Below the pieces are notes generated by a model. That model was given only the letters and a program-made list of their open reading frames with translations. It was not told where the DNA came from and searched no databases. A DNA stretch of 64,000 nt from Bacteroidia bacterium (GTDB taxonomy: Bacteria; Bacteroidota; Bacteroidia; B-17B0; Aurantibacillaceae). The position numbers and the translations under genes were made by a program. The DNA is taken from contig JAOAIP010000028.1 of NCBI GenBank assembly GCA_026414605.1, positions 1-64,000 on the forward strand. The letters run 5' to 3'. Positions 18,120-44,844 of the stretch are shown here, piece by piece; positions within the stretch are counted from its first letter, which is position 1; every line of letters starts with the position of its first letter.

Positions 18120-19739
18120 TTATTCCTTAATAATGGCTGTGTTTGTAATACCTTCTTTGGATTCAAGAGTCATTACATAATATCCTTTCGGTAATGCTTC
18201 AATGTTTAATAAAGCGGCATTAGTAGAGTTGAAATTTTCATTTACTAATACTCTTCCGGTAATGTCCATAATTTTAATGTTGCGAATGGGGTTATCATTA
18301 GTATGGATATTAATAATATCTTTTGTAGGATTTGGATAAATCAAGAATCCGTTGTTGAAGGGAGTATTATTGATAGAAGTTACTAAATTGGCAAAAGCAG
18401 GGTCGTTAAAATCAGCACCAGATGCAGCAATGCCAGTGCTTACAGGTCTGTAGTCAGGATTATAAAAATCATAAGGATTAACTAAAATCCCCGATGTAGA
18501 TACTAATGAGTCATTATTATTAGCACCAAACCAAGCAGGTGCATTGAATGAACTACCACTCACTACTTCTGTAACTTTTCCTGTAGAATTGCCTGCTACG
18601 ATATTGTATTTGAATTTTAAAGTACCATTTGTAGCATTGTTTTCACAAGCAGTTCCATCAATCATTACACCTCTTGGATGATCCATAAATATAGAGTTGA
18701 ATATTTTAAGTTCAGAGTTTCTTCTAATACGTGCACCTCTTCTAAATCCAGAAGCAATAGTACTTGATGTATTTCCTCTATAAGGTCCGATGATAGTTAT
18801 ATTAGAAAATATAGCAGATGTTTTTGGAGTGGCTGTGCTACCTGTAGGGTCGTTGTCAGATTCAAAACCCTCAGATGTAGATACAGAAGGATTGTCTGCA
18901 ATGAGTGGATCTCTTACAGCAAGACAAAATTGAACATTTCCACGATAACCGTTGTCAGTATCAAAATCATCGTCTAAGTTTCTATAAGATACAAGATGTT
19001 TGCAATTTACTGTTCCGCCAAACCATTCAAAACCATCGTCATTTGCAAAAGATACTTGAACATAGTCCACTACCGTTTTTCTACCAACAGCACCAAAAGT
19101 TAATCCATTGATTTCTTTGTTTGGTTGATAGGCGTAGCCCGCAAATTCAATACGCACGTATTTTAAGATACCAGAACTATCATTGTCATTAGGAGTAGCA
19201 CCTCCGCCATATTGTGTATCAGGGCTTGGTGGAAGACCTTCAATGTAATTCGTTCCGCCTGCATCATTAGTGCTGGCATTTCCTAATATCACAACGCCTC
19301 CCCAGTCGCCCAAGTTTCTTTGTCCAGGGGCTTGATCAGAAGTAAATACAATGGGTTGATTAGGTGTGCCTTGAGCAATTATTTTAGCCCCACGAGTGAT
19401 GAATAGTCCAGCGCCTGCTACACTTTTATCGCCGCGAATAATCACACCTGGCTGAATAGTGAGTACTGCGTTGTTTTTTACAAAAATTTGACCGCTTAAT
19501 AAAATAACTTGACCTGTGCTCCAAGTGGTATTGGTTGTAATGTTACCTGTAACGGTCATAGTAGGAGCAGGATACATTTTGTTTTGAGGATCCCATTCGC
19601 ACCATTGATCGGTCCACATAGGAGTAGGTGCAGGATCAAATGCGCCACGGTAAGTAGTGGGTTGGAAAAAGGGTTGCTGAGCAACACCCCATTGTAAGCA
19701 CGCTGTAATAGCCGCTACTTGTAGAATTGTTTTTCTCAT
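18120..19739 (-). CDS. Secreted beta-helix protein with T9SS type A sorting domain
   Basis: 539 residues. A signal peptide (1-20) leads into a Gly/Asn-rich region with repeated short strands (LTIQPGVIIRG, KIIAQGTPNQPIVFTSD, GDWGGVVILGNAS, LKYVRIEFAG), characteristic of a right-handed beta-helix. Acidic clusters such as NLDDDFDTDNGY could bind calcium. The last about 75 residues (IYPNPTKDIINI, KIMDITGRVL, LPKGYYVMTL) are a type A C-terminal sorting signal for T9SS. The protein is therefore released or anchored on the cell surface. It is the last gene of an operon with a TonB receptor and a winged-helix protein, suggesting it binds or processes what the receptor imports. Confidence 0.88.
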   Translation of the reverse strand: MRKTILQVAAITACLQWGVAQQPFFQPTTYRGAFDPAPTPMWTDQWCEWDPQNKMYPAPTMTVTGNITTNTTWSTGQVILLSGQIFVKNNAVLTIQPGVIIRGDKSVAGAGLFITRGAKIIAQGTPNQPIVFTSDQAPGQRNLGDWGGVVILGNASTNDAGGTNYIEGLPPSPDTQYGGGATPNDNDSSGILKYVRIEFAGYAYQPNKEINGLTFGAVGRKTVVDYVQVSFANDDGFEWFGGTVNCKHLVSYRNLDDDFDTDNGYRGNVQFCLAVRDPLIADNPSVSTSEGFESDNDPTGSTATPKTSAIFSNITIIGPYRGNTSSTIASGFRRGARIRRNSELKIFNSIFMDHPRGVMIDGTACENNATNGTLKFKYNIVAGNSTGKVTEVVSGSSFNAPAWFGANNNDSLVSTSGILVNPYDFYNPDYRPVSTGIAASGADFNDPAFANLVTSINNTPFNNGFLIYPNPTKDIINIHTNDNPIRNIKIMDITGRVLVNENFNSTNAALLNIEALPKGYYVMTLESKEGITNTAIIKE

Positions 19740-19847
19740 AGTTTTATATTTTAATTTTGTGCTGCAAAGTTGTTCACTTTATATTACCTGATTATTAAAC
19801 TCATATTGCTAAAATATTATGTTTTTGGATTTAAAGATGATCTCACA

Positions 19848-20144
19848 CTATTCATCTCTTTCAATAATTTTTACAGGCGAGATGTTTAATTTATATCCAA
19901 CATTTTTAATGGTTTTGATAATACTTGCACCTAATTTTTTCCGAAGATTAACAATATGAACATCTACTGTTCTTTCTTTGATATTTGATTCTTCTGGCCA
20001 AATTTTTTTAAAAATATCTTTGCGATTGTATACTTTCCCTGGTACTTCGGCTAATAATTTGATGATTTCAAATTCTGTTTTAGATAGTTCTACAATAATT
20101 CCATTTTTATTTACAACATACTTTTCACAATCTACAATAAACAT
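19848..20144 (-). CDS. Stand-alone OmpR/PhoB-type winged-helix protein, no receiver domain
   Basis: 98 residues, comprising almost only a Trans_reg_C DNA-binding domain: LSKTEFEIIKLLAEVPGKVY (about 20-39), the recognition-helix region RTVDVHIVNLRKKLG (about 58-72) and the wing IIKTIKNVGYKLN. Full response regulators of this family have a 120-residue receiver in front; here the TonB receptor stop lies only 6 bp upstream of the ATG, so no receiver is present. It is co-transcribed with the TonB receptor and the beta-helix gene. It may be an autoregulator working without phosphorylation, or a remnant. A remnant would be expected to decay, but the fold looks intact. Confidence 0.88.
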   Translation of the reverse strand: MFIVDCEKYVVNKNGIIVELSKTEFEIIKLLAEVPGKVYNRKDIFKKIWPEESNIKERTVDVHIVNLRKKLGASIIKTIKNVGYKLNISPVKIIERDE

Positions 20145-20150
20145 AACAAT

Positions 20151-23030
20151 TTAAAATTTATAAGAGATATTGATTTGATAAATTGTAGGATAATTTATTT
20201 TCAAAATAGTATAATCCACATTTTTATTGAATTTCGTGTTTTTATCGGCATTTTGATATACAAACTGATCTTGATGTAGTAAATCTCGGATATTAAATTT
20301 AATTTCTAATTTATCATTGATAAATGATTTGGCAATTTGAAAGTCAATAACATCTCTTCCTGTTTCGTATCTATCAGGATCTCTTTGGTTTCCAGCAAAG
20401 ATGATTCTTCTTCCTATTCTATTATAGGCAATGGTGATTTTCCATTTTGTTTTTTTATCAAAATAAGTAACACCTGAATTGATTAAAAATGGTGATTGTC
20501 CTTGTAATGGGCGGACTTTACTTGCAGAATAGATGTTATCAGGTAAGTTTACTTCTGATTTTATTAATGCAAGATTGGTAAATACTGAAAATTTATCTAA
20601 GATAGATGAAGTATCTTTTGTTTTGAAAATACTAGATAATTCCATTTTTACTTCTGTTTCAATACCATAAACACTTGCAAAGTTAGCATTTGCCCAAGTT
20701 ATTTCATTAGTATAGCCGGGTGACATCACTTGCTCAATAGGATTTATAAAGTATTTGTAAAATGGTGTAAAGGTGATGAGTTGTCCTTTGCCTGGATAGT
20801 ACTCGTAGCGAACATCAAAGTTGTGAATGGTAGATGGCAATAAAGTATCGTTACCATAATATACTAAACGATTGACGGGATTGTACCAACTCACGAGTGC
20901 TAACTCTCTAAATTCAGGTCTATTCAAAGTTTTTGAATAACATACTCGTATACCTTGTTTTTCATTAATATTGTAAATGATATTAATGCTTGGTAAAAGA
21001 TTTTTGTATACATCATTTATCTTTATTGAATCTTGTTGATTTCTTTTGGCTAAAAGTTGCTGATAGTAGTACTCGTATCTTACACCGGTTATGATTTTAA
21101 TGGATTGGTATTCCAATGTTCCCATTAAATAAGTAGCGAAATTATTGGCTTTTGCAAAATATTTATCACTTGGTTTAGTTACTTCTATTAACTTAAATCC
21201 TGTTTTATTATTTGATAACACCCCCATATTTTGTTCAGAAAAAATTAAATCAGGTGGGAGATATAATAAACTATCGTCAAAGAATTTGCCCATTTGAGTG
21301 TATTTAGCATAACCAAATTGACGAATATCAAAGCTTCTTTGTCTTTGTTGAAAATACAAGCCTGTTTGAAGAGATGTCTTGACCTTTTCAGTTGAAATTA
21401 TCTTTTCAAGATCCCATTTTGCAGAACGAATGTCTTCGTTCATTTTTGAGAAAAAGCGGTAACCTGCATAATCGGGACCTGTAGATGCATTAGAGATATT
21501 GGCAGCATACATTGTGTCTCTAATAAAGGCAGGTGCTGGTTCTGAAGGATCTGGTTGATTTTGAATACGCACAAATTTTGAGTAACTCATATATCTAACA
21601 TTAGGGGTGAGAATATTGATATTACTATATCCAAGTGTGAATTTTGATTTGATACCTAACTTTTCTATTTCATTTTCTGTGGCAATTTGTGTAGAATAAA
21701 TTTTAGTATGTGTATAAAACAATGCAGTGTTTTTATCTACAGTTCTATTTGAATCCAGGGGAGCAATGGTGCCTTGTTGTTCTATTGTAGATTGATTAGA
21801 ATTTAAGATAAGCATATTTTTAAAACTAATTTGATGTTGAGGATTAAATTTATATCCTACGTTCAATAAAGATGTATTTATCACAATGTTTTGAGTATTG
21901 ACAATGTTGTAATAATCGTCCAGCATAACATCTGCATCGTTGTTGGGATTATTAGTATAATTGGTTCTTCTTGTAGTCGTTTTATTAAAAGAGTTATTAT
22001 AATTTTGAGAGAAAATAAAACCTAATTTGTGATTGTTCTTAAATGTTTTAGTATAAGCAGCGGTGAGGTTAACACTGGTGTTGGGCATTATTTTTTTACT
22101 GGTTGTTCCAAAGTCATTTTTAAATTGTTTGGCCATTTCTACTTGTTGGTCATTTTTAATCCAAGATTTTGGTGACTCGGGAATAGCAGAAGGAATGTTT
22201 TGTGAATTATCATAAATACCTAAAGAGTGATATTGGCTGGCAGAATAAGAATCAAAATTTTTAAATGTTGCCAGTGTATTATATCCTGCAGAAGTACTTA
22301 CTTGAATAAAGGATTGATCGGGAATGGATTTGGTAGATAGAAAGATGCTTCCACCTCCAAAATCTGCGGGCAAATCAGGAGTTGCAGTTTTATTGATGAT
22401 GATATTATCAATAATTTGTGAAGGAATGAGATCAAAAGAAAATGCTCTTCTATCGCTTTCAGTAGAGGGAAGCGGAGCATTGTTTAAGAAAGACAAATTA
22501 TATCTTTCGTTTAAACCTCTTACAACTACAAATCTATTATTCACAATACTTACACCACTTACTCTTTTAAGTACATCGGAGGTTGTTCTGTCGGCAGTTT
22601 TTTTGATTAATTCAGCAGATACACCATCACTTACACTTTTATTTTCTTTTTGAATGATAGCCAATCCAGCATCGTTATTTAGTATCCTTTCTGCGACAAC
22701 AGACACTTCTGAAAGCACATTGTTTTTCTCTGGAGACAATGCTATTGAAATAAATATGCTATCATTTTTAATAACAATATTTTGAGTAAAGGTGTTGTAA
22801 GTAATATAAGAACATACTAATTTATACGTGCCAGGGTATACCTTTAGTTGAAAACTACCATCAAAATTGGTAGTAGCAGAGATATTAGTGCCTTCAAGAT
22901 AAACAATAGCACCAGGCAATGCTTCATTAGTTAATGAATCCTTAACTTCGCCATAAATGATATTTCTTTGCGAGTAAGAAAGTTTTGCTAATAAAATAAA
23001 TGTAATTAAATGATAAAGATACTTTTTCAT
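20151..23030 (-). CDS. TonB-dependent receptor with carboxypeptidase-like N-domain
   Basis: 959 residues from the ATG at 23030, where MKKYLYHLITFILLAKLSYS is a standard signal peptide; an upstream in-frame ATG at 23051 overlaps the promoter box. The N-domain (about 20-110, IIYGEVKDSLTNEALPGAIV) is followed by the plug with the phrases RGLNERYNLSFLN and LPADFGGGSIFLSTKSIPD, typical of the large receptor class with PDLPADFGGG, and then a long barrel ending in YQINISYKF. The substrate is unknown. The downstream surface beta-helix protein is probably its functional partner. Confidence 0.9.
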   Translation of the reverse strand: MKKYLYHLITFILLAKLSYSQRNIIYGEVKDSLTNEALPGAIVYLEGTNISATTNFDGSFQLKVYPGTYKLVCSYITYNTFTQNIVIKNDSIFISIALSPEKNNVLSEVSVVAERILNNDAGLAIIQKENKSVSDGVSAELIKKTADRTTSDVLKRVSGVSIVNNRFVVVRGLNERYNLSFLNNAPLPSTESDRRAFSFDLIPSQIIDNIIINKTATPDLPADFGGGSIFLSTKSIPDQSFIQVSTSAGYNTLATFKNFDSYSASQYHSLGIYDNSQNIPSAIPESPKSWIKNDQQVEMAKQFKNDFGTTSKKIMPNTSVNLTAAYTKTFKNNHKLGFIFSQNYNNSFNKTTTRRTNYTNNPNNDADVMLDDYYNIVNTQNIVINTSLLNVGYKFNPQHQISFKNMLILNSNQSTIEQQGTIAPLDSNRTVDKNTALFYTHTKIYSTQIATENEIEKLGIKSKFTLGYSNINILTPNVRYMSYSKFVRIQNQPDPSEPAPAFIRDTMYAANISNASTGPDYAGYRFFSKMNEDIRSAKWDLEKIISTEKVKTSLQTGLYFQQRQRSFDIRQFGYAKYTQMGKFFDDSLLYLPPDLIFSEQNMGVLSNNKTGFKLIEVTKPSDKYFAKANNFATYLMGTLEYQSIKIITGVRYEYYYQQLLAKRNQQDSIKINDVYKNLLPSINIIYNINEKQGIRVCYSKTLNRPEFRELALVSWYNPVNRLVYYGNDTLLPSTIHNFDVRYEYYPGKGQLITFTPFYKYFINPIEQVMSPGYTNEITWANANFASVYGIETEVKMELSSIFKTKDTSSILDKFSVFTNLALIKSEVNLPDNIYSASKVRPLQGQSPFLINSGVTYFDKKTKWKITIAYNRIGRRIIFAGNQRDPDRYETGRDVIDFQIAKSFINDKLEIKFNIRDLLHQDQFVYQNADKNTKFNKNVDYTILKINYPTIYQINISYKF

Positions 23031-23048
23031 AAATTTAATTTTTTGGGG

Positions 23049-23056
23049 CAAAGTTA
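23049..23056 (-). promoter_or_regulatory. -7 promoter box of TonB/winged-helix/beta-helix operon
   Basis: TAACTTTG on the minus strand, 18 bp before the ATG at 23030. It supports the shorter start of the receptor. Confidence 0.6.
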
Positions 23057-23291
23057 CCTTACTTATGTTTTAAGTATTTTAAGTCGTAGTTATGTTTATT
23101 TAAATAAAAATTAAACTCAATGTTAGGTTTTTGTTAAGAAAAATTAATATTGAATTAACAATAAATTTTGTTGCACATTTTTTTGTAAAAGAACAGTCCT
23201 TAAAAAGGAACATCCACAATACATCATCAAAAAATTTTCTCAAAGGTAAAAATTAAGTTTAATTGGTAGATATTAAACTAAATCTGTTTAA

Positions 23292-23299
23292 TACATTTG
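23292..23299 (+). promoter_or_regulatory. -7 promoter box of M1 peptidase gene
   Basis: TACATTTG, 17 bp before the ATG at 23317. It lies inside the longer open frame, arguing against a start at 23263. Confidence 0.6.
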
Positions 23300-23316
23300 C
23301 AGCCAAAAATTTATTT

Positions 23317-25317
23317 ATGAATAAATCAAGCATTACTTCTTGGCTTATTTTGTTTGGGGTATTAAGTGTTTTTGCTCAAACTTCACATCCTTGTGCTAAA
23401 ATCAAGCAGCAACACAAAGCCGCTACAGAAAAACAATTACTCAACAAACAAGTTTTATCAAGCAATAATTTAATGAATAATTACGATGTAAAATTTCATC
23501 ATCTTAATTTGAATTTAGAAAGAACGAATAAAAATATCTCTGGCTATGTGAGAACAATTGCAAAGGTAATCAGTAATCAACTGGATACTTTTGCTTTTGA
23601 ATTGCATCAAAATTTTACCATAGATTCTGTTGTAATAAATTCTCAAAAAGAGACCTCTATTGTGAGAGTAGATAGTTTAATAAAAGTAAAAATTTCTAAT
23701 CCTGTTAATCAAAATAATTTAGTAGATGTCTTAATTTATTACCACGGCACAGCACCTTCTTTATCAGGAGCATTAGGTGATGGTTTTAGCAATGGCACAT
23801 CGCCTTCTTGGGGCAATCAAGTAACTTGGAGTTTGAGCGAAACAAGAGGGGCTTATCATTGGTGGCCTTGCAAACAGGACTTAAGAGATAAAATAGATAG
23901 TGCGTGGATTTTTGTTACTACAGATTCTACCAATATGGTAGGTTCAAATGGTGTGCTTACAAACGTAGTTACCATTGGTAATAAAAAACGTTACGAATGG
24001 AAAACGCGTTATCCTATAGATTATTATTTAATATCAGTAGCAATAGCCAAATACAAACCTTATGTTTTATACGCCAAACCACAATATCTTACAAACGATT
24101 CTATTTTAATCCTAAATTACATTTATGACAATGCTATCAATAGTCCTGCGTTTATTAGTGGACAAAAGGTTCAATTGGATCAAATAAAACCAACCATAGA
24201 GTTTTTAAGCAAAATGTATGGAATGTATCCTTTTTACAAAGAAAAATATGGGCATTCTATGGCACCCATTGGAGGCGGTATGGAGCATCAAACAATGACT
24301 ACGATTGGCTTTTTTGATTTTCAAATAGATGCTCACGAGTTAGGACATCAATGGTGGGGCGACCTTGTTACATGCAAAACATGGGGAGATATTTGGATTA
24401 ATGAGGGCTTTGCTTCCTATACAGAGCATTTAGTTAATCAATACCTAAAACCATCTTCGTTTATGAGTAATCTTAATAGCGTTCATAACAATATAATGAG
24501 CCAAGCAGGTGGAAGTATTTATTTTACTGGAATAGACACCACAGATGACAATAGAATTTTTGATAGCCGCTTGACTTATGACAAAGGTGGTGCTATTATT
24601 CATACACTTCGTTTTGTAACTAATGATGATTCGTTGTTCTTTAATGGATTGAGAAATTTCTTGAATACCTATAAATTTAGCACTGCTACAGCAATGGATT
24701 TTAAAACATCTTTTGAATCCTATACAGGACTTAATTTGACTCAATTTTTTAACCAATGGTATTTTGGTGAAGGATATCCTACCTTTAATGTAAAGTGGAA
24801 TTATTTTAATGATACTTTAATTATACAATCTACGCAAACGACTTCAAAACCAAGTTCTGTGCCTTTGTTTATTACACCGATGGAGTACAAATTAATTCGT
24901 AGTACAGGCGGAGATACCATTATTCGTGTAATGCACGCTAATGCTACTGAGACCTACACTTTAAAAGTTCACGGAAATGTAACAGGCATTCAAGTAGATC
25001 CTAACAATTGGGTTATTAATAAAACAATAGGTCCTTTAAAGGATAACACCTTAGATGTTCAAGGATTTTCAAATAAAATGGCTATTAATGCCTACCCAAA
25101 TCCTGCGAGTGATGCGATAAATATAGAAACAGGGAATGTTAATATCAAAACTATTGAAATCAGAGATATTTTGGGGAATGTAGTATATAGCAAAACAAGT
25201 CATTTGTCTGATGAGAGAATATCTGTGCATTCGCTTTCTAATGGACTTTATTTGATAGTTGTAAAAGATTCCAACAATAATGTTTTAGCAACAGAAAAAT
25301 TAATCATTCAAAAGTAA
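23317..25317 (+). CDS. Secreted M1-family metallopeptidase with T9SS type A sorting domain
   Basis: 666 residues from the ATG at 23317, which begins a clear signal peptide (MNKSSITSWLILFGVLSVFA). The zinc site is HELGH (340-344) with the third ligand Glu363 in NEGFASY, exactly HExxHx18E. The exopeptidase motif is GGGMEHQT rather than GAMEN. The C-terminal about 75 residues (AYPNPASDAINI ... LSNGLYLIVV) are a T9SS type A sorting signal. It is therefore a surface or released aminopeptidase feeding peptide nutrition. Fusion of M1 and a sorting domain is common in this phylum. Monocistronic, downstream of its own promoter. Confidence 0.95.
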   Translation: MNKSSITSWLILFGVLSVFAQTSHPCAKIKQQHKAATEKQLLNKQVLSSNNLMNNYDVKFHHLNLNLERTNKNISGYVRTIAKVISNQLDTFAFELHQNFTIDSVVINSQKETSIVRVDSLIKVKISNPVNQNNLVDVLIYYHGTAPSLSGALGDGFSNGTSPSWGNQVTWSLSETRGAYHWWPCKQDLRDKIDSAWIFVTTDSTNMVGSNGVLTNVVTIGNKKRYEWKTRYPIDYYLISVAIAKYKPYVLYAKPQYLTNDSILILNYIYDNAINSPAFISGQKVQLDQIKPTIEFLSKMYGMYPFYKEKYGHSMAPIGGGMEHQTMTTIGFFDFQIDAHELGHQWWGDLVTCKTWGDIWINEGFASYTEHLVNQYLKPSSFMSNLNSVHNNIMSQAGGSIYFTGIDTTDDNRIFDSRLTYDKGGAIIHTLRFVTNDDSLFFNGLRNFLNTYKFSTATAMDFKTSFESYTGLNLTQFFNQWYFGEGYPTFNVKWNYFNDTLIIQSTQTTSKPSSVPLFITPMEYKLIRSTGGDTIIRVMHANATETYTLKVHGNVTGIQVDPNNWVINKTIGPLKDNTLDVQGFSNKMAINAYPNPASDAINIETGNVNIKTIEIRDILGNVVYSKTSHLSDERISVHSLSNGLYLIVVKDSNNNVLATEKLIIQK

Positions 25318-36345: not shown

Positions 36346-39300
36346 CTATCTAAATACCGTTAGTGGTCCTGTATAATCTTTTGGATAAAGTTTAGAATTC
36401 AATCTAATTATGTAATAGTAAGTACCTACTGGCACATCTTTTCCTTTATATTTTCCATCCCACGGTGTAGAGTATCCTTTGGAATAAAATAGTTGCTCTC
36501 CCCATCTATTATACACCTCTACTTCACAGTCAGGGAATTGTTGTATATTGTCAATTACCCAATAATCATTTTTACCATCACCATTAGGGCTAAAACCATT
36601 AGGAATATCTATTTCAGGATAAACATATACCGTTACGGTATCCCAATTAGTACAACCATTGGCATCTGTAACTATAACTGTATAAGTTGTGGTAAGAGTG
36701 GTAGATGTTGTCGGATTGGGGATGTTAGGGCTATTTAATCCCGTAGCAGGAATCCATACATAATTAGTGGCAGTAGATGCAGTAGGATTACCACCAATAA
36801 CTGTTGATGCTCCCGTAGGCATTGTTACATAAGGTCCTGCATCTACATTAGGAAGTGGATATCCTACCAATACTACCATTTCGGTATCTATACATGTTCC
36901 ATTGGTTACAGTTAATACAAAAGTATTACTACCCACACTAACATTAGCAACAGCAGTAGATGTGTTAGCAATAGTAGTAGAAGGTAATTGTGTCCATTGA
37001 TAGCTTGTAGCATTTATAGAAGTACTACCATCAAGGGTATAAGTATAAGCGCCGCACTGTGCAGTGCCAGAGTTAGCAGATGCTAAAAGTGTAAGTGTTG
37101 ATGATACTACAAAACTGGTATCGTGAGTACAGCCCTTGCTATCTATTATACTTAAGGAATAAGTACCTATACCAATGTTGGATATAGAACCTGTATTATT
37201 AGTATATGAGTTCGGTCCATTCCAGTTGTAAGTATAGGTAGGATTACCTCCTGTAACAGAGATAGTAATAGACCCATCAAAAAGTGCACTACAACTTGGG
37301 TCTGTAATAGAAGCATTAGCCACAATAGGTTGTGGTTGATTAATATTGATAGTTACATTTGTTGGACAATTATTAGCATCTTGAACAATTACTGTATAAT
37401 TTCCAGTTCCTATATTTACTAAAGGATTTGTAGTACTACCAGATGGTTGGAAAGTATAACTATAAGGCAAAGTTCCACCACTTGTTACGATAGCAATAGA
37501 ACCATCTGTATCTCCGTAGCATTTGGGGTTTTGAACAATAGGAATGCTATTTAATATTCCAATTGGTGATGAAACACTTCCACTCAACACGGTTAAACAA
37601 CCTGCATTATCTGTAACGGTCGCAGTAATTAATCCGCTGCATAATCCAGATAAATTACTAAAATTACCATTTACAACTGTACCATCGTACCATGTGATAG
37701 TATAAGGCGAAACACCCGCTGTTACACTAACTGATGCAGCCCCATCGCAAGAAGTATTGCAGGCAGCATCTATGATAGAAAGAGTAGCAAGAGGTCCATT
37801 TTGATTAGAAACAACAAATACAGAAGAGGTAGTACAACCTGCAGCATCAGAAATGTTTAAGGTATAAGTTCCTGGTCCAATATTCGTAAGAGTAGCAGAG
37901 GATATATTTCCTGGAAGCCAAGTATATGTAAAAGGTGGAGTTCCTCCATTAATGTTAGCAATTATACTACCATTATTCGTTCCGCATGAAGGTTGATACA
38001 CTATTGGAACTATCTGAATGGTATTCGTTGCCACTATATTAACAGATTCAGTATTAATACAATTCATAGAATCCTTTACTTGAACATAATATGTCCCTGA
38101 ACACAATCCATTTTCAATATTAGATATATTTCCAGAATTTATCCATAAATATGAATAAGGTGGGGTGCCTCCACTTGCTGTTATTGTTGCGGACCCAACA
38201 CAATCACCAAAACAAGCAGGATTAGTTACAGTGATAGCAGTAATTAGTGAAGAATTATTACTTAATGGAATAAATTCATTTTGAATGCAACCATTAGCGT
38301 CTGTAATTGTAATCATATACAAGCCAGCACATAAATTAGCGGATCCCATACCTGAGTTTCCATTACTCCATTGAACAGTATAACCAGGCGTACCCCCTGA
38401 TAAATTTAAATTAATGGATCCGTCGCAATTACCACAAGATGGATTATTTGAATTATAGATAGTTGTTATAGAAGATGGTGAAGTAATAGTAACTGAGAAA
38501 TTGTCAAAACAGCCATTGTTGTCGGTGATGGTACAAGTATAATTTCCATTGCATAGTCCTATAGCAGTAGAATTACTTTGTCCTAATGGATCAGACCAAT
38601 GAAATACATAAGGCGGCAATCCTCCTGCTATTCCTACTAAAGAAGCAGTACCATTGCAGTCATAAAAACAATTATTATTTGTAACAAATGTACTTGCAGT
38701 GATAGAAATGCCTCCTGTCAATGTATAAGTCAAGGGATATTGACAGCCATTATTATCAAATACAGAAACCGAATACACTCCTGGACACAATGATGTTACT
38801 GAGTTAGAAGAGGATCCTGTATTCCATGTATAAGAATATGGAGCAGTGCCACCAGTAGGGGATAAACTAATACTTCCGTCACAAATTCCATTACACTGTG
38901 GATTTTGTATGTTAGCATTCGCATTAATTGGTGAGGGTTCAGAGATAGTAACTGATTGAAAAAACTTACAGTTATTTGCATCAGTAACCTGAACGGTATA
39001 AACTCCAGCACAAAGATTAGAGATGGTAGCAGATGCTACAGGTGGGCTAACCCACGTATAGGTATAAGGCGCAGTTCCTCCCGTAATAGGGGGAGAAGCA
39101 ATAGCCATCCCATCACAATAACTGTTACAAGAAACATTAGTAAAAGTAATCGTTATACCACTTGGACCATTTGAATTACTTAAAGGCAATTGGAACGTTT
39201 GACTACAATTGTTAGCATCAGATACAGTTACGGTGTACACTCCTGAACACAGATTTGTAGCCATACTGCCTGTAGATACAGATGGCTGCCAAGTATAAGA

Positions 39301-42300
39301 ATAGGGGCCAGTACCACCACTTGTTGCAAGAGTGATAGACCCATTGCATACACTACAATCTGATGGGCTCATTGACGGATTTACAGTAAGAGTTACAGGA
39401 GCATTTAAAGTTACCTGTCCACTATCTCTACATCCTTTGTTGTCTTGAATATAAACGGTGTATGTGCCTGCACATAAACCAGTTGCTGTTGGAGTACTTT
39501 GTGGTGGAGAAGAAGTCCATGTGAAATTAATAGGTGCAGTTGCATTTAATGGATTACTACTGGCTATTCCATTGCAATTGCTGCAAGATGTAGGGTTAGT
39601 AAAACTGATATTTGCTAAAATTTTTGGAGGATTAATTAAACTTGCTACTTGTTGTCCCTGACAATTTTTACTATCTTTAATCAGCAGTGTATAATTACCT
39701 GCACAAAGATTGCTGGCTGTAGATGAATTTCCTCCTGATGGTATCCAAGTGTAAGTATATCCACCGTTACCACCCACTGCAGTAGAAGTAATTATTCCAT
39801 TACATAGATTGAAGCACGTTGGATTTGTTGGAGTTACACTTACGCTAATAGGTGCTGGCTGGTTAATAGTAAATGTTTTAATGGATTGGCAACCATTAGC
39901 GTCAGTTACAATAGAAGAATAGGTACCAGCACAAAGAGTGTTTACCACAGAAGAAGTCAATACTGTACCACTCCACGAATAAGAATAAGGAGATACCCCT
40001 CCATTAACGGTTACAGTAGCACTTCCGTTACAATCTCCGTTACAATTGACACTTGGAGTATTTACTACTGTACTGGTTAATACAGGAGGTTCCGTAATAG
40101 TATATGTTAATGTAACATTACAACTTCCATTATCTTGTATATTTACAGTATAAACATTCGGACATAATCCAACAATAGAGGGAAGAGTAGATCCAGGGAA
40201 ACTTCCAATAGGCGTCCAAGAATAAGAATAAGGGGCAGTTCCACCTGAAACAACTAATCCAATTGTACCATTACAAGCACTATTACACAAAACATTTTGT
40301 GTGTTAGCAGTAACATTCAAGGTAGAAGGAGGATTGATGATAAAGGTTTGTGTGTAAGAACAGTTGTTGGCATCTAATATATCAAGAGTGTATGTTCCAG
40401 GGCATAATGAATTGACAAAAGAAGCATTAGACCCCGTAGACCAAGTGTAACTATACGCAGGAGTACCACCAGCAGGGGATACACTAATAGCACCAGAGCA
40501 ATTGGAATTACAAATGGGCTGTGTAACTGTTGGGTTCAAAGAAAATTGTGCTGGTTGGCTAATACTAATTACTGAACTTGTTGTACAACTTCCTGCATCA
40601 CCTATTGTAACAACATATACACCAGAAGAAAGACCTGATGCTACACTGTTTGTAGATACAGAAGGGCTCCAAGTATAAGATAAAGGAGGATTAGTAGATG
40701 TAGCAACTACTGTGGCAGATCCGTTTGAACCATTAAAGCAACTTACGGATTGAGTGGATATAGAAGTAATTGTAGGTCCTCCAGGACCATTCAGTGCAAC
40801 TACTGAAGTAGTAGAACATCCATTTGCATCCTTAACAATAATCGAGTATACCCCCGATGAAAGTGTATTTACTGTAAATGAAGAAGAGGTGGATCCTGTT
40901 GGTCCAGGACTTATAGTATAGTTATAATTTGGAATACCACCACTTAAAGTAGCACTTATTATGCCGTTATTGCTAACACAACTTGTAGGATCTGTATAAC
41001 TTATATTTACAGTGGTAGCTGGTGGTTGAGAAACTGTAAAAGTTGCTGTTTTTGTACAATTATTAGCATCCTTAATATCTACAGTATAATTTCCAGCGCA
41101 CAAACCTGTTACTGTACCTGTACCATCACCGGTGAGTCCTGAGGGTGTCCATGAATAATTTAAACTACCTGTTCCACCCGTTGCACTTATGCTAATTTTT
41201 CCATTGCAAGATCCAAAACAGTTATTATTTATAACATTAGAAGAAGTAATGGTAATAACAGGGGGATCAATAAATCTAACAGAATCAGCATTTTGACAAC
41301 CCTGATTATCTGTAACAGTAATCGTATAACCACCAGCACACAATCCATTGATATTTTGGTTATTAGAAATTGTTCCCGTAGAAGATGTCCAAGTATATGT
41401 ATAGGGGCTTACGCCACCGGACACGTTGACATTTGCAGCACCATTACAAGATCCATTACAAGTAAGGGTATTTCCACTTGTAGTTAAGGTTAAAAAGATG
41501 GCTTGTGGGATATTTACAGTGGCAGTTGCTGTACAGCCATTTATATCTTTAACAATAGCAGTATAGTTACCAATACATAAACCTGATGCAACAGAATTAC
41601 TACCACCACTTGGTAGCCAAGTGTATGAATAAGCAGGAGTACCACCCGATGGAGAAACTGTAGCAGCACCTATACATGTAGAACTACAGCTTGCTTGTAT
41701 GCCTGTAATATTTGCTTGCAATTGGGAGGGTTGGTTAATACTAATATTTTGAGAGGCAACACAACCTTTGCTATCTGTTACAGTTACTACATAATTTCCA
41801 GGGCATAAACCTGTAACCGCAGAGTTGGTAGTAACAGGAGTGGTATTCCATTGATATACATAACCCGGATTACCTCCTGTTGCTGTAGCGGTTGCAGAAC
41901 CATTACAAGCCCCAAAACACAATACATTTTGAACATTAGTAGTTATTGTAATAGCAGGAGGAGCTATCACAGTGAAAGTTTGGACTTTGGTACAATTTTT
42001 TGAATCAGTAACAGTCAATGTGTAGGTTCCTGGGCATAATCCAGTTATACTACTTGTTGTTGCACCAGTATTCCAATTATAGGAATAGGGAGAGTTTCCA
42101 CCTGTTACAGTGGTAGTAATAGACCCATTACAATTGTAACTACAAGAAGTGGAATTGGTGGTTGCAGTTACAGTAATATCTGGGGGAGAAGTGATATTTA
42201 CAGTTTTTGTTCCTACACATCCATTTCCATCTATAACATTGAGTGTGTAAATTCCTGCACATTGATTGGTTAATACAGCGGAAGTAAATGTAGTCCCACT

Positions 42301-44844
42301 TGGGGGAACAGACCATACATAAGTATAAGAGGGCGTACCTCCACTGGCGCTTCCTGAAACAGATCCATCGCATCCACCAAAACAAGATACGCTGGTGGAT
42401 ACGGCAGTTACAGTAAGAGCATTCGGTTGTGTAATAGTAATAACAGTACTTTGGATGCAGCTGTTAGCGTCTTTTATTTGTAATGTATAAGTTCCTGCGC
42501 ATAATGATGAATAAGGTGGATTAGTAGTAAGAGTTGTTGTTGGACCTGTTAGAGTATAAGTATAAGCACCCGTACCACCCGAAGGAGTAGCATTAATTAC
42601 TCCATTACAAGCATTATTACAGGTAACATTTGTTTTAGTTACATTGGGTGTTATAGAAGATGGTTGTGTAATAGTATAGTTAATCGTTACACTACAACTA
42701 TTAGCGTCTTTTACAAGAACACTATAATTGCCTGCACATAAGGAAGATATTGGATTAATAGTTTGAGAACCAGGCGACCAAGTAAAAGTATAAGGAGGAG
42801 TACCGCCTCCAGGTGTTAAAGTTGCGCTACCATTGCATAATCCATTACAAGTTACATTTGTAACATTAACAGTTCCAGAGAGCACAGGGGGTTGTGTAAT
42901 GGTAAATGTTTGTATCTGGGTACAATTGTTTGCGTCTTTTACATTAATTGTATAATTTCCTGCACATAGATTATTGATAGTAGCAGTTGGATTCGCTACG
43001 CCAGTAATGCTACCAGGCGAGAGAGTATAATTAAATGCAGGAGAACCACCATTTACAGTAAAGTTAACTTTGCCATTACAAGATCCGTTACAAAGTGCGG
43101 CAGTAGTAGATGGTACGATAGTAATTGACCCTGGTTGGGTGATGGTAAATGATTGGGTTTTCGTACAATTATGATTATCTTTAATAGTAACAGTACAATT
43201 GCCAGCACAAAGTCCAGAAGCAGAATTTGTAGTAGATCCAGAGCAGGACCATGTATAAGAATAAGGAGAAACGCCACCACTTACACTCACAGAAGCGGTA
43301 GCATCACATAAGCTGAAACAACTGACATTGGTTTGAGAAGGCACTACAGTGATAGAAGTAGGTTGTGTAATATTAGTAATATAAGTGGCTGTACATCCAT
43401 TAGCATCTGTAATAGTGGCCGTATACCCCCCTGGACAAAGATTGTTTATAGCCGTTGTATTAGTAGCTCCTGTGCTCCAATTCACAGTATATCCAGGTGT
43501 TCCACCTGATGGGGAAACTTGGGCTGATCCATTGCAAAATCCAAAGCAAGAGATATTGTTAGATGAACCATTAGGCAACAAAGGGGGGGGTTGTGATAAG
43601 GTAATTGTTGTAGTTTTTGTACATCCATTAGCATCTTTTAAGACAAAGGTGTGGGTACCCGCACATAAATTAGTGTATGTTGTATTTCCCTGAGGAATAG
43701 TGTAAGTATTAATACCATCTACAGTTATAGTATATCCTGTTGGTGGATAGGAGCCTTGAAGAGCATTGAGCGTTATACTACCATTACATTGACCATTGCA
43801 TAAAGGAGGATTATCAGATGTTTTAACTAAAATTAAAGCACCAGGTTGGTTGACATAACCAAGTGCAGATGTTAAGAAGTTATTATTATTATCATAAATG
43901 TCTACTTGATATGGGGAGCATTGACAAAGATTGGTAATTGTGTAAGAACCATTCCCTGCCACTGATGTAAGGGTAGGGGTAGAGGAACATCCAGATGGCC
44001 ATTGTAATTGAAAGGGTGTTGAAGTGGAGCAACCTGTACTACTTATAGTTAATACAAGAGATCCATCACAAGTACCAAAACAACTTGTTGAATATCCAGT
44101 TAATGTAGCGGATGCTATACAAGAAGTAGGAGACCAGTCAGGTGTATAAATTTTAGAATTTATATTGTTTTTAATTAATGTTTTTACAAATGCACTATCT
44201 TCTTTTGTAACAAAATGAGATTGTGATATATTAAATGATATGCTTTTATTTGTTATTTTATCTATTTTTAATACAGATGATTGGGCTTCAATGAGAGAAC
44301 TAATTGAAGTTAATTTTTGTGTTTCTAAATGTCCATTTATGATATTTAATAAAGCATTGTCAAGGTTTAAACTATCAGTAAATAAATTTGATATTTGAAA
44401 ATGTCCATTTTTTAGTACTAAAGCATTGTTTAATTTAGCATAAAAAAAGACATAAGATAGTGCCTTTTTTGTGTTTGTTACAATAATTGGTTTGGAAGTG
44501 TTAATAGAGCAATTAGGATGAATAATAATATCCCCATCAATTAAAAGAGAATGATTTTTAGTATCAATAAATACTTGAAAAAAAGAATTTTTAACTTCTA
44601 AACCACTTATTTTAATGTCTGAATGAAATTCAATTAACATATTAGATTTAGAGGATGCTTCATCAATAATCGCTTTGGTATTAGCATCTGGAAGGTGTCC
44701 GCAAGGGGTTCCTCCGCTTGTTAATGACCAATGTTGAGGATCGTTCCATTTGCCTGTTCCTCCAATCCAATACAAGGTCTTTTGGGCATTTAGTATAAAA
44801 AATAGTAGTAAAAAATTCAGAATATAAAGATATTTTTTTGACAT
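36346..44844 (-). CDS. Giant SprB-repeat surface adhesin with T9SS type B sorting domain
   Basis: 2832 residues. Signal peptide (1-20), an N-terminal head (about 21-240), then about 30 SprB-type repeats of 70-90 residues (about 245-2590). Each repeat opens with a Cys motif like SCFGxCDGSATVSxSGGxxPY and closes with GLCAGTYTVTVTDANGC, so paired Cys likely make a disulfide per repeat. After two PKD-like domains (about 2590-2740) comes a gliding-associated CHU_C/type B sorting domain (IPNGFSPNGDGKNDYWVIDN, VEVYNRWGEQLFYSKGY, VPVGTYYYIIRL). This is the architecture of the gliding adhesin SprB and kin, a filament moved or displayed on the surface. It is paired with the downstream porP/sprF gene. 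Confidence 0.95.
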   Translation of the reverse strand: MSKKYLYILNFLLLFFILNAQKTLYWIGGTGKWNDPQHWSLTSGGTPCGHLPDANTKAIIDEASSKSNMLIEFHSDIKISGLEVKNSFFQVFIDTKNHSLLIDGDIIIHPNCSINTSKPIIVTNTKKALSYVFFYAKLNNALVLKNGHFQISNLFTDSLNLDNALLNIINGHLETQKLTSISSLIEAQSSVLKIDKITNKSISFNISQSHFVTKEDSAFVKTLIKNNINSKIYTPDWSPTSCIASATLTGYSTSCFGTCDGSLVLTISSTGCSTSTPFQLQWPSGCSSTPTLTSVAGNGSYTITNLCQCSPYQVDIYDNNNNFLTSALGYVNQPGALILVKTSDNPPLCNGQCNGSITLNALQGSYPPTGYTITVDGINTYTIPQGNTTYTNLCAGTHTFVLKDANGCTKTTTITLSQPPPLLPNGSSNNISCFGFCNGSAQVSPSGGTPGYTVNWSTGATNTTAINNLCPGGYTATITDANGCTATYITNITQPTSITVVPSQTNVSCFSLCDATASVSVSGGVSPYSYTWSCSGSTTNSASGLCAGNCTVTIKDNHNCTKTQSFTITQPGSITIVPSTTAALCNGSCNGKVNFTVNGGSPAFNYTLSPGSITGVANPTATINNLCAGNYTINVKDANNCTQIQTFTITQPPVLSGTVNVTNVTCNGLCNGSATLTPGGGTPPYTFTWSPGSQTINPISSLCAGNYSVLVKDANSCSVTINYTITQPSSITPNVTKTNVTCNNACNGVINATPSGGTGAYTYTLTGPTTTLTTNPPYSSLCAGTYTLQIKDANSCIQSTVITITQPNALTVTAVSTSVSCFGGCDGSVSGSASGGTPSYTYVWSVPPSGTTFTSAVLTNQCAGIYTLNVIDGNGCVGTKTVNITSPPDITVTATTNSTSCSYNCNGSITTTVTGGNSPYSYNWNTGATTSSITGLCPGTYTLTVTDSKNCTKVQTFTVIAPPAITITTNVQNVLCFGACNGSATATATGGNPGYVYQWNTTPVTTNSAVTGLCPGNYVVTVTDSKGCVASQNISINQPSQLQANITGIQASCSSTCIGAATVSPSGGTPAYSYTWLPSGGSNSVASGLCIGNYTAIVKDINGCTATATVNIPQAIFLTLTTSGNTLTCNGSCNGAANVNVSGGVSPYTYTWTSSTGTISNNQNINGLCAGGYTITVTDNQGCQNADSVRFIDPPVITITSSNVINNNCFGSCNGKISISATGGTGSLNYSWTPSGLTGDGTGTVTGLCAGNYTVDIKDANNCTKTATFTVSQPPATTVNISYTDPTSCVSNNGIISATLSGGIPNYNYTISPGPTGSTSSSFTVNTLSSGVYSIIVKDANGCSTTSVVALNGPGGPTITSISTQSVSCFNGSNGSATVVATSTNPPLSYTWSPSVSTNSVASGLSSGVYVVTIGDAGSCTTSSVISISQPAQFSLNPTVTQPICNSNCSGAISVSPAGGTPAYSYTWSTGSNASFVNSLCPGTYTLDILDANNCSYTQTFIINPPSTLNVTANTQNVLCNSACNGTIGLVVSGGTAPYSYSWTPIGSFPGSTLPSIVGLCPNVYTVNIQDNGSCNVTLTYTITEPPVLTSTVVNTPSVNCNGDCNGSATVTVNGGVSPYSYSWSGTVLTSSVVNTLCAGTYSSIVTDANGCQSIKTFTINQPAPISVSVTPTNPTCFNLCNGIITSTAVGGNGGYTYTWIPSGGNSSTASNLCAGNYTLLIKDSKNCQGQQVASLINPPKILANISFTNPTSCSNCNGIASSNPLNATAPINFTWTSSPPQSTPTATGLCAGTYTVYIQDNKGCRDSGQVTLNAPVTLTVNPSMSPSDCSVCNGSITLATSGGTGPYSYTWQPSVSTGSMATNLCSGVYTVTVSDANNCSQTFQLPLSNSNGPSGITITFTNVSCNSYCDGMAIASPPITGGTAPYTYTWVSPPVASATISNLCAGVYTVQVTDANNCKFFQSVTISEPSPINANANIQNPQCNGICDGSISLSPTGGTAPYSYTWNTGSSSNSVTSLCPGVYSVSVFDNNGCQYPLTYTLTGGISITASTFVTNNNCFYDCNGTASLVGIAGGLPPYVFHWSDPLGQSNSTAIGLCNGNYTCTITDNNGCFDNFSVTITSPSSITTIYNSNNPSCGNCDGSINLNLSGGTPGYTVQWSNGNSGMGSANLCAGLYMITITDANGCIQNEFIPLSNNSSLITAITVTNPACFGDCVGSATITASGGTPPYSYLWINSGNISNIENGLCSGTYYVQVKDSMNCINTESVNIVATNTIQIVPIVYQPSCGTNNGSIIANINGGTPPFTYTWLPGNISSATLTNIGPGTYTLNISDAAGCTTSSVFVVSNQNGPLATLSIIDAACNTSCDGAASVSVTAGVSPYTITWYDGTVVNGNFSNLSGLCSGLITATVTDNAGCLTVLSGSVSSPIGILNSIPIVQNPKCYGDTDGSIAIVTSGGTLPYSYTFQPSGSTTNPLVNIGTGNYTVIVQDANNCPTNVTININQPQPIVANASITDPSCSALFDGSITISVTGGNPTYTYNWNGPNSYTNNTGSISNIGIGTYSLSIIDSKGCTHDTSFVVSSTLTLLASANSGTAQCGAYTYTLDGSTSINATSYQWTQLPSTTIANTSTAVANVSVGSNTFVLTVTNGTCIDTEMVVLVGYPLPNVDAGPYVTMPTGASTVIGGNPTASTATNYVWIPATGLNSPNIPNPTTSTTLTTTYTVIVTDANGCTNWDTVTVYVYPEIDIPNGFSPNGDGKNDYWVIDNIQQFPDCEVEVYNRWGEQLFYSKGYSTPWDGKYKGKDVPVGTYYYIIRLNSKLYPKDYTGPLTVFR

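Follow-up and report, generated by a model that had tools for sequence, protein, structure and literature searches.

The locus described here raises the question of what role a response-regulator output domain can play when it is encoded without a receiver, as the middle gene of a surface-uptake operon. The gene lies at positions 19848-20144, on the minus strand, of the 64,000-nucleotide stretch of Bacteroidia DNA that was analyzed (the window). A preliminary description of the window had presented its product as a 98-residue PhoB-like winged helix with no receiver, and had suggested that a regulator in this place exerts autogenous control without phosphorylation. The domain assignment is borne out: the 98-amino acid protein matches PF00486 (Trans_reg_C) with an E-value of 7.8e-22 and 77.6 bits against a cut-off of 26.2, no receiver domain was found in it with Pfam, and no receiver remnant was found upstream of the gene, whose open frame comprises just 100 codons. 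It is the sole member without a receiver-sized N-terminus among the five Trans_reg_C proteins of the window's genome. The gene is indeed the middle one of a surface-uptake operon and, because its product has no receiver, control cannot depend on phosphorylation of that product.

AlphaFold2 predicts a complete winged helix (mean pLDDT 90.8), and a Foldseek search with the predicted structure returned the PhoB effector domain (1gxp/1gxq), GlnR, ArlR and similar DNA-binding domains, which together with the PF00486 score above the curated cut-off places the protein among the OmpR/PhoB-type output domains. It is not a PhoB equivalog, a class which combines receiver and output domains and scores above 270 bits against NF053854, as it reaches 73.2 bits through its output part only. 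It does not belong to the pseudo-receiver or aspartate-less receiver proteins either, since the receiver is absent entirely, nor is it an NnaR, which joins a HemD-like N-terminal domain to an OmpR-type DNA-binding domain, since its 98 residues hold no further domain. Its identity to the PhoB of its own genome is about 44%. Two positions which contact bases in PhoB are altered (R200 to V and R201 to N), so that the protein may favour a different DNA site, and the Gly that follows the conserved Trp of the PhoB transactivation loop is lost from the receiverless protein (WG to WP/WN).

The first gene of the operon encodes a TonB-dependent receptor (20151-23030, minus strand) with a plug (PF07715), CarbopepD_reg_2 (PF13715) and OMP_b-brl_3 (PF14905). 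Its ATG start is at 23030, the listed start being a TTG at 23051, and its end at 20151 leaves the 6-bp gap to the winged-helix gene that the preliminary description had reported. The receptor scores 55 bits against TIGR04056, far from the more than 368 bits that mark the SusC/RagA class. The third gene (18120-19739, minus strand), separated from the winged-helix gene by 108 bp, had been called a T9SS beta-helix gene. Its product carries a type A sorting domain (Por_Secre_tail PF18962, E 3.1e-13), which substantiates T9SS secretion, and its predicted beta-helix fold is suggested by a homologous Flavobacterium protein with a pectin-lyase fold (IPR011050, PMC8115612); no Pfam model matching that fold was found for the beta-helix part, and a PDB sequence search matched the sorting domain alone. 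Homologues of this ElpS/FII-like protein accompany the same TonB receptor both within Bacteroidota and outside it, the TonB gene lying 5' of the beta-helix-type gene in 60 of the 72 loci examined (Bacteroidota, Ignavibacteria and others). The window's pair has the domain composition of TBDT/ElpS-FII pairs, in which a PF07715/PF13715/PF14905 receptor accompanies a secreted predicted beta-helix partner, with the winged-helix gene intervening. One record titled Glaciecola amylolytica (L018) contains Bacteroidota-type TonB/ElpS-like genes and may be mislabelled. Elsewhere in the window, a gene for a T9SS M1-family aminopeptidase (23263-25317, plus strand) is divergent from the TonB operon and has a common intergenic region with it, and the minus strand at 36346-44844 encodes a 2832-amino acid protein that consists of numerous segments similar to one another and may be a T9SS surface adhesin.

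The operon has a known counterpart in the phosphate regulon, the TBDT/ElpS-like pair (PMC8115612, PMC2996285), and its substrate is therefore most likely phosphate or an organophosphate. In Flavobacterium johnsoniae, Fjoh_0542-0546 encode OprP, PhoR, PhoB, a TBDT with PF07715, PF13715 and PF14905, and FII, which has a pectin-lyase fold, and the listed induction values of the TBDT and FII genes (Fjoh_0545/0546) under phosphate depletion are 8.02 and 9.91 (PMC8115612). FII is reported to have a relative in Caulobacter, a low-Pi lipoprotein (PMC8115612), which we take to be ElpS (cc0170), the gene of which adjoins the TonB receptor gene cc0171 (PMC2996285). The window's TonB/T9SS pair would match Fjoh_0545/0546 and ElpS by domains, by context and by the induction of the counterparts, not by direct alignment. 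In relatives PhoB and PhoR flank the pair, in most of them divergently (the domains were checked for L008 and L012), and one locus (L023) additionally encodes Porin_O_P and PHO4 (phosphate transporter) proteins. Both a Pho box and PhoBR linkage are present in the relatives, whereas in the window the box is weaker yet in phase and PhoBR is unlinked: the genome retains a PhoB whose receiver residues are intact (L158; full-length PhoB on G000:C25), together with a histidine kinase (L179) that shares 58-60% identity with PhoR from two relatives, and neither of them lies beside the operon. The genome's pst-phoU operon (L215) contains no winged-helix gene.

The order of TonB receptor, winged helix and beta-helix protein is found in three species of the window's genus, in the window and in the genomes matched to contigs JAOABO010000003.1 (G001) and BPGX01000003.1 (G002). 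Since it is present on separate assemblies of two further species it is no assembly artefact, and the agreement of the three assemblies rules out a chance order. Across the three species the winged-helix protein has the same length of 98 amino acids and an identity of 74-78%; pairwise dN is 0.16-0.20 and dS, where computable, is about 1.76 and near saturation. With dN/dS about 0.09-0.10, the gene is, by this codon-based estimate, under purifying selection, and decay is ruled out by this ratio together with the complete predicted fold. The order therefore recurs beyond the window with its regulator intact, which disposes of the concern, raised in the preliminary description, that it might occur here alone and degenerate in relatives. 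The same description knew of no standard system with this exact order; the order that includes the winged-helix gene is restricted to one genus, and the operon as such has its counterpart in the phosphate-regulon pair discussed above.

Among 87 genomes of the window's taxonomic order, receiverless copies were found only in the window's genus, apart from two shorter frames at contig starts (G065, G095). A class-wide sample of 395 genomes yielded two matches which outrank every full-length regulator, a 104-codon frame in G405 and a 99-codon frame in G180, both 56% identical to the window's protein over the aligned part, and a search of the taxonomic order of G405 yielded a third member in G819. 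In all three genomes, which belong to two other Bacteroidota families, the gene lies between pstS and pstC in a porin-pstS-wHTH-pstC-pstA-pstB-phoU operon (gene names from NCBIfam for L200 and part of L201, the remainder by similarity), and in G405 and G819 its stop overlaps the start of pstC. Two arrangements in which the two halves of a regulator are encoded apart were also observed: in the pst operon of G180 (L201:9002-9677) a swapped split regulator consists of the winged-helix gene followed by an ATGA-overlapping receiver gene, whose frame contains a one-base shift, and in G051 (L202:2649-3366) receiver and winged helix lie in overlapping different frames, possibly those of a frameshifted full-length regulator.

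In many relatives a further PhoB-type regulator, here called RR2, is encoded 3' of the beta-helix gene, directly or soon after (L160:10984-11673, L161:8701-9375, L162:3880-4554 and a further 12 loci). Its receiver has lost the second acidic residue (D10) in all 15 aligned sequences and the phosphorylated Asp (D53) in 11 of the 15, whereas the divergently encoded PhoBs all keep the residues lost in RR2, save for Thr-to-Ser changes; normal phosphorylation of RR2 is therefore not expected from its sequence. Three of four genomes from the window's genus encode PhoU, as do those in which the receiverless gene sits in a pst operon; in the two RR2-bearing relatives that were tested it was not found. 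In two genomes a conserved gene of about 280 amino acids stands between the ElpS-like gene and RR2 (L174:8349-9194, L175:5386-6228), which suggests a further regulatory partner. In a tree based on an alignment of 93 columns, the deeper order of which is uncertain, the six receiverless proteins from three families form one clade (96/89) separate from PhoB, and a branch (98/87) divides this clade together with RR2 from all PhoBs. The position of PhoB Arg201 is Asn in RR2 and the receiverless proteins (Ser in L006), as against Arg or Lys in PhoB. Neither simple line of descent is favoured, and neither is rejected: a grouping of the proteins of the window's genus with RR2 alone has an AU p of 0.094, all receiverless proteins falling in one clade near the RR2/PhoB split once the pst-embedded members are included, and direct descent from the genome's own PhoB has an AU p of 0.187.

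A motif trained solely on the TonB upstream regions of 22 relatives, TTAAcaTTTtGGTAACATTaAATTtAag, consists of 11-bp repeats (log-likelihood 241 vs 82-85 in shuffles), and its core agrees with the TTTAACA core obtained for Riemerella PhoP by DAP-seq (PMC9603813). In 20 of the 22 relatives the motif begins exactly 52 bp ahead of the TTTG in the -7 element; in the other two the distance is 41 bp, one repeat fewer. Of the 19 beta-helix promoters that have a TTTG, 17 show the corresponding phase of 8 mod 11, although two of the 17 also have a second, out-of-phase TTTG. Among genes outside the training set, 9 of the 10 porin/pstS promoters in which a box can be recognised show this phase too, and they include those of pst operons in other families. 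In the window the TonB promoter has a Bacteroidota-type -7 element, TAACTTTG (23049-23056, minus strand), the TAnnTTTG of which is found in the two congeners as well. Upstream of it, within the region 23031-23262 for which the preliminary description had proposed a binding experiment, an extended array of TTAA(C)-type half-sites spaced by 11 bp (23078-23160, minus strand) stands in the same phase of 8 mod 11 to the -7 element, with its best Pho-box-like match at 23110-23137. A second Pho-box-like site upstream of the beta-helix gene (19771-19798, minus strand) lies 30 bp before a TTTG, again 8 mod 11. These two sites are, in this order, the top minus-strand motif matches in the 64-kb window, in which two plus-strand matches in coding regions score in the same range (10.9 and 8.5).

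The array of the window's genus differs from that of its relatives in both strength and length. Its TonB boxes score 2-10 bits vs 15-31 in relatives, and are shifted by exactly two, three or four repeats, while the pstS promoter of the window's own genome retains a near-consensus box (23.5). Of five upstream slots, four, four and two are occupied by in-phase half-sites in the three species (four in the window), giving a mean of 3.3 vs 0.49 in dinucleotide shuffles (0 of 500 as high), compared with 0.5 vs 0.43 in relatives; the extension comes from a single three-species clade, in which it is not separable from common descent.

The reading which we favour, with modest confidence, is that the protein is a phosphorylation-independent PhoB paralogue, reduced to the DNA-binding domain, which binds the repeats of its own operon beside the global PhoBR. 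The phosphate signal would be supplied by PhoR-PhoB, encoded elsewhere in the genome; the winged-helix protein, being made with the operon, would bind the tandem 11-bp TTAA-type repeats that precede the TonB gene and the beta-helix gene, its own amount thereby becoming the input. Because it lacks the receiver that normally gives dimerisation, we infer that it binds cooperatively, as a head-to-tail row of monomers, a mode which fits the longer, weaker array of the window's genus; the added repeats would offset the missing dimer interface. As to the sign of this presumed autogenous control, a positive amplifier is preferred by a narrow balance to a feedback brake, because the operator of this genus has moved away from the PhoB consensus and has at the same time acquired half-sites in phase. 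That other Bacteroidota carry the same family in their phosphate-transporter operons suggests that phosphate uptake is under a local layer of control which needs no phosphorylation. A broader generalization is offered tentatively, at somewhat short of an even chance: a receiverless PhoB-type family, resident in operons for phosphate acquisition (pst operons in two families, a TonB/ElpS-like one in a third), would sense no phosphate, would take the expression of its host operon as its input, and would have cooperative DNA binding on a long in-phase array in place of dimerisation through a receiver.

The evidence must also be weighed against readings in which the protein acts otherwise. As a feedback brake it would occupy the same repeats, activate poorly and displace PhoB, capping expression as the operon is expressed; the position of its gene inside the operon to be capped, the missing receiver dimer interface and the lost Gly of the transactivation loop all agree with this, but one would expect a competitor to retain the PhoB consensus, from which the weak TonB boxes of the genus, unlike the genome's own pstS box, depart, and we regard the brake as rather unlikely. 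The sister proteins belong to another phosphate operon (pst), so the family is not tied to one host operon, and the main targets might instead be other Pho-box promoters at which the protein modulates PhoB in trans, its place in the TonB operon merely coupling its dose to phosphate starvation. That both best minus-strand matches of the window, and the array extension, are in its own operon tells against this, and makes it a distinctly unlikely account.

The protein could also be one half of a split response regulator working with a separate receiver protein in trans, as the ATGA overlap in G180 and the overlapping frames in G051 might indicate; but no receiver gene adjoins the winged-helix gene in the window's genus, in L200 or in L238, and the frameshift in the first of these examples and the possible frameshift in the second weaken both, so that we consider this improbable. 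The absence of any receiver could finally be taken as the mark of a decaying, functionless remnant of a full-length regulator, to which the constant length and high identity in three species, the low dN/dS, the complete predicted fold and the single clade across three families leave hardly any probability. The favoured reading, binding to the operon's own repeats, has points against it as well: the R200/R201 changes, the array extension in one clade only and the absence of the gene from its own genus's pst operon. Isolated output domains of E. coli PhoB do bind and activate. The isolated DNA-binding domain of Riemerella PhoP, a Bacteroidota counterpart of PhoB, did not bind its target in EMSA (PMC9603813), which by analogy is the strongest counter-evidence to the proposed binding; between these two precedents either outcome is possible for the window's protein.

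The locus lends itself to a natural test of why response regulators need a receiver, because a single regulon allows canonical PhoB, dead-receiver paralogues and receiverless paralogues to be compared together with matching changes in their operators. It also provides a predicted Pho box for Bacteroidota, in the form of 11-bp repeats in fixed phase to the -7 element, and promoter evidence that ties a widespread and poorly understood TonB/ElpS-like surface system to phosphate. In the open-licence literature searched, no paper on receiverless response regulators was found, nor any description of a receiverless PhoB-type family in phosphate operons with a matching operator change.

The individual pieces, namely PhoB output domains, Pi-induced TBDT/ElpS pairs, pseudo-receiver regulators such as ChxR and the receiver-lacking NnaR, are already known. 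The window's protein shares with Bacteroidota-type PhoB (NF053854) the winged-helix output domain and the Pho-box-like 11-bp repeats at the promoter, but differs from it in having no receiver, in recognition-helix positions 200 and 201, and in being encoded inside its presumed target operon. The PUSIV TBDT-FII pair in the PhoBR operon of F. johnsoniae (Fjoh_0545/0546) and Caulobacter cc0171/elpS likewise set a TonB receptor beside a secreted phosphate-starvation-induced protein, the induction having been published for those proteins, whereas in the window a receiverless regulator gene separates the pair and PhoBR is unlinked. ChxR of Chlamydia is an OmpR/PhoB-type regulator which works without phosphorylation, but it retains the receiver fold as a dimerisation module. 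NnaR, the actinobacterial nitrate regulator, is a receiverless OmpR-type DNA-binding domain beside a global regulator (GlnR), but it has a HemD-like N-terminal domain and serves nitrogen, not phosphate. RR2 resembles the window's protein as a local PhoB paralogue at the same operon for which normal phosphorylation is not expected and which has Asn at PhoB position 201; it differs in that it keeps a pseudo-receiver, and the window's protein belongs to a separate clade.
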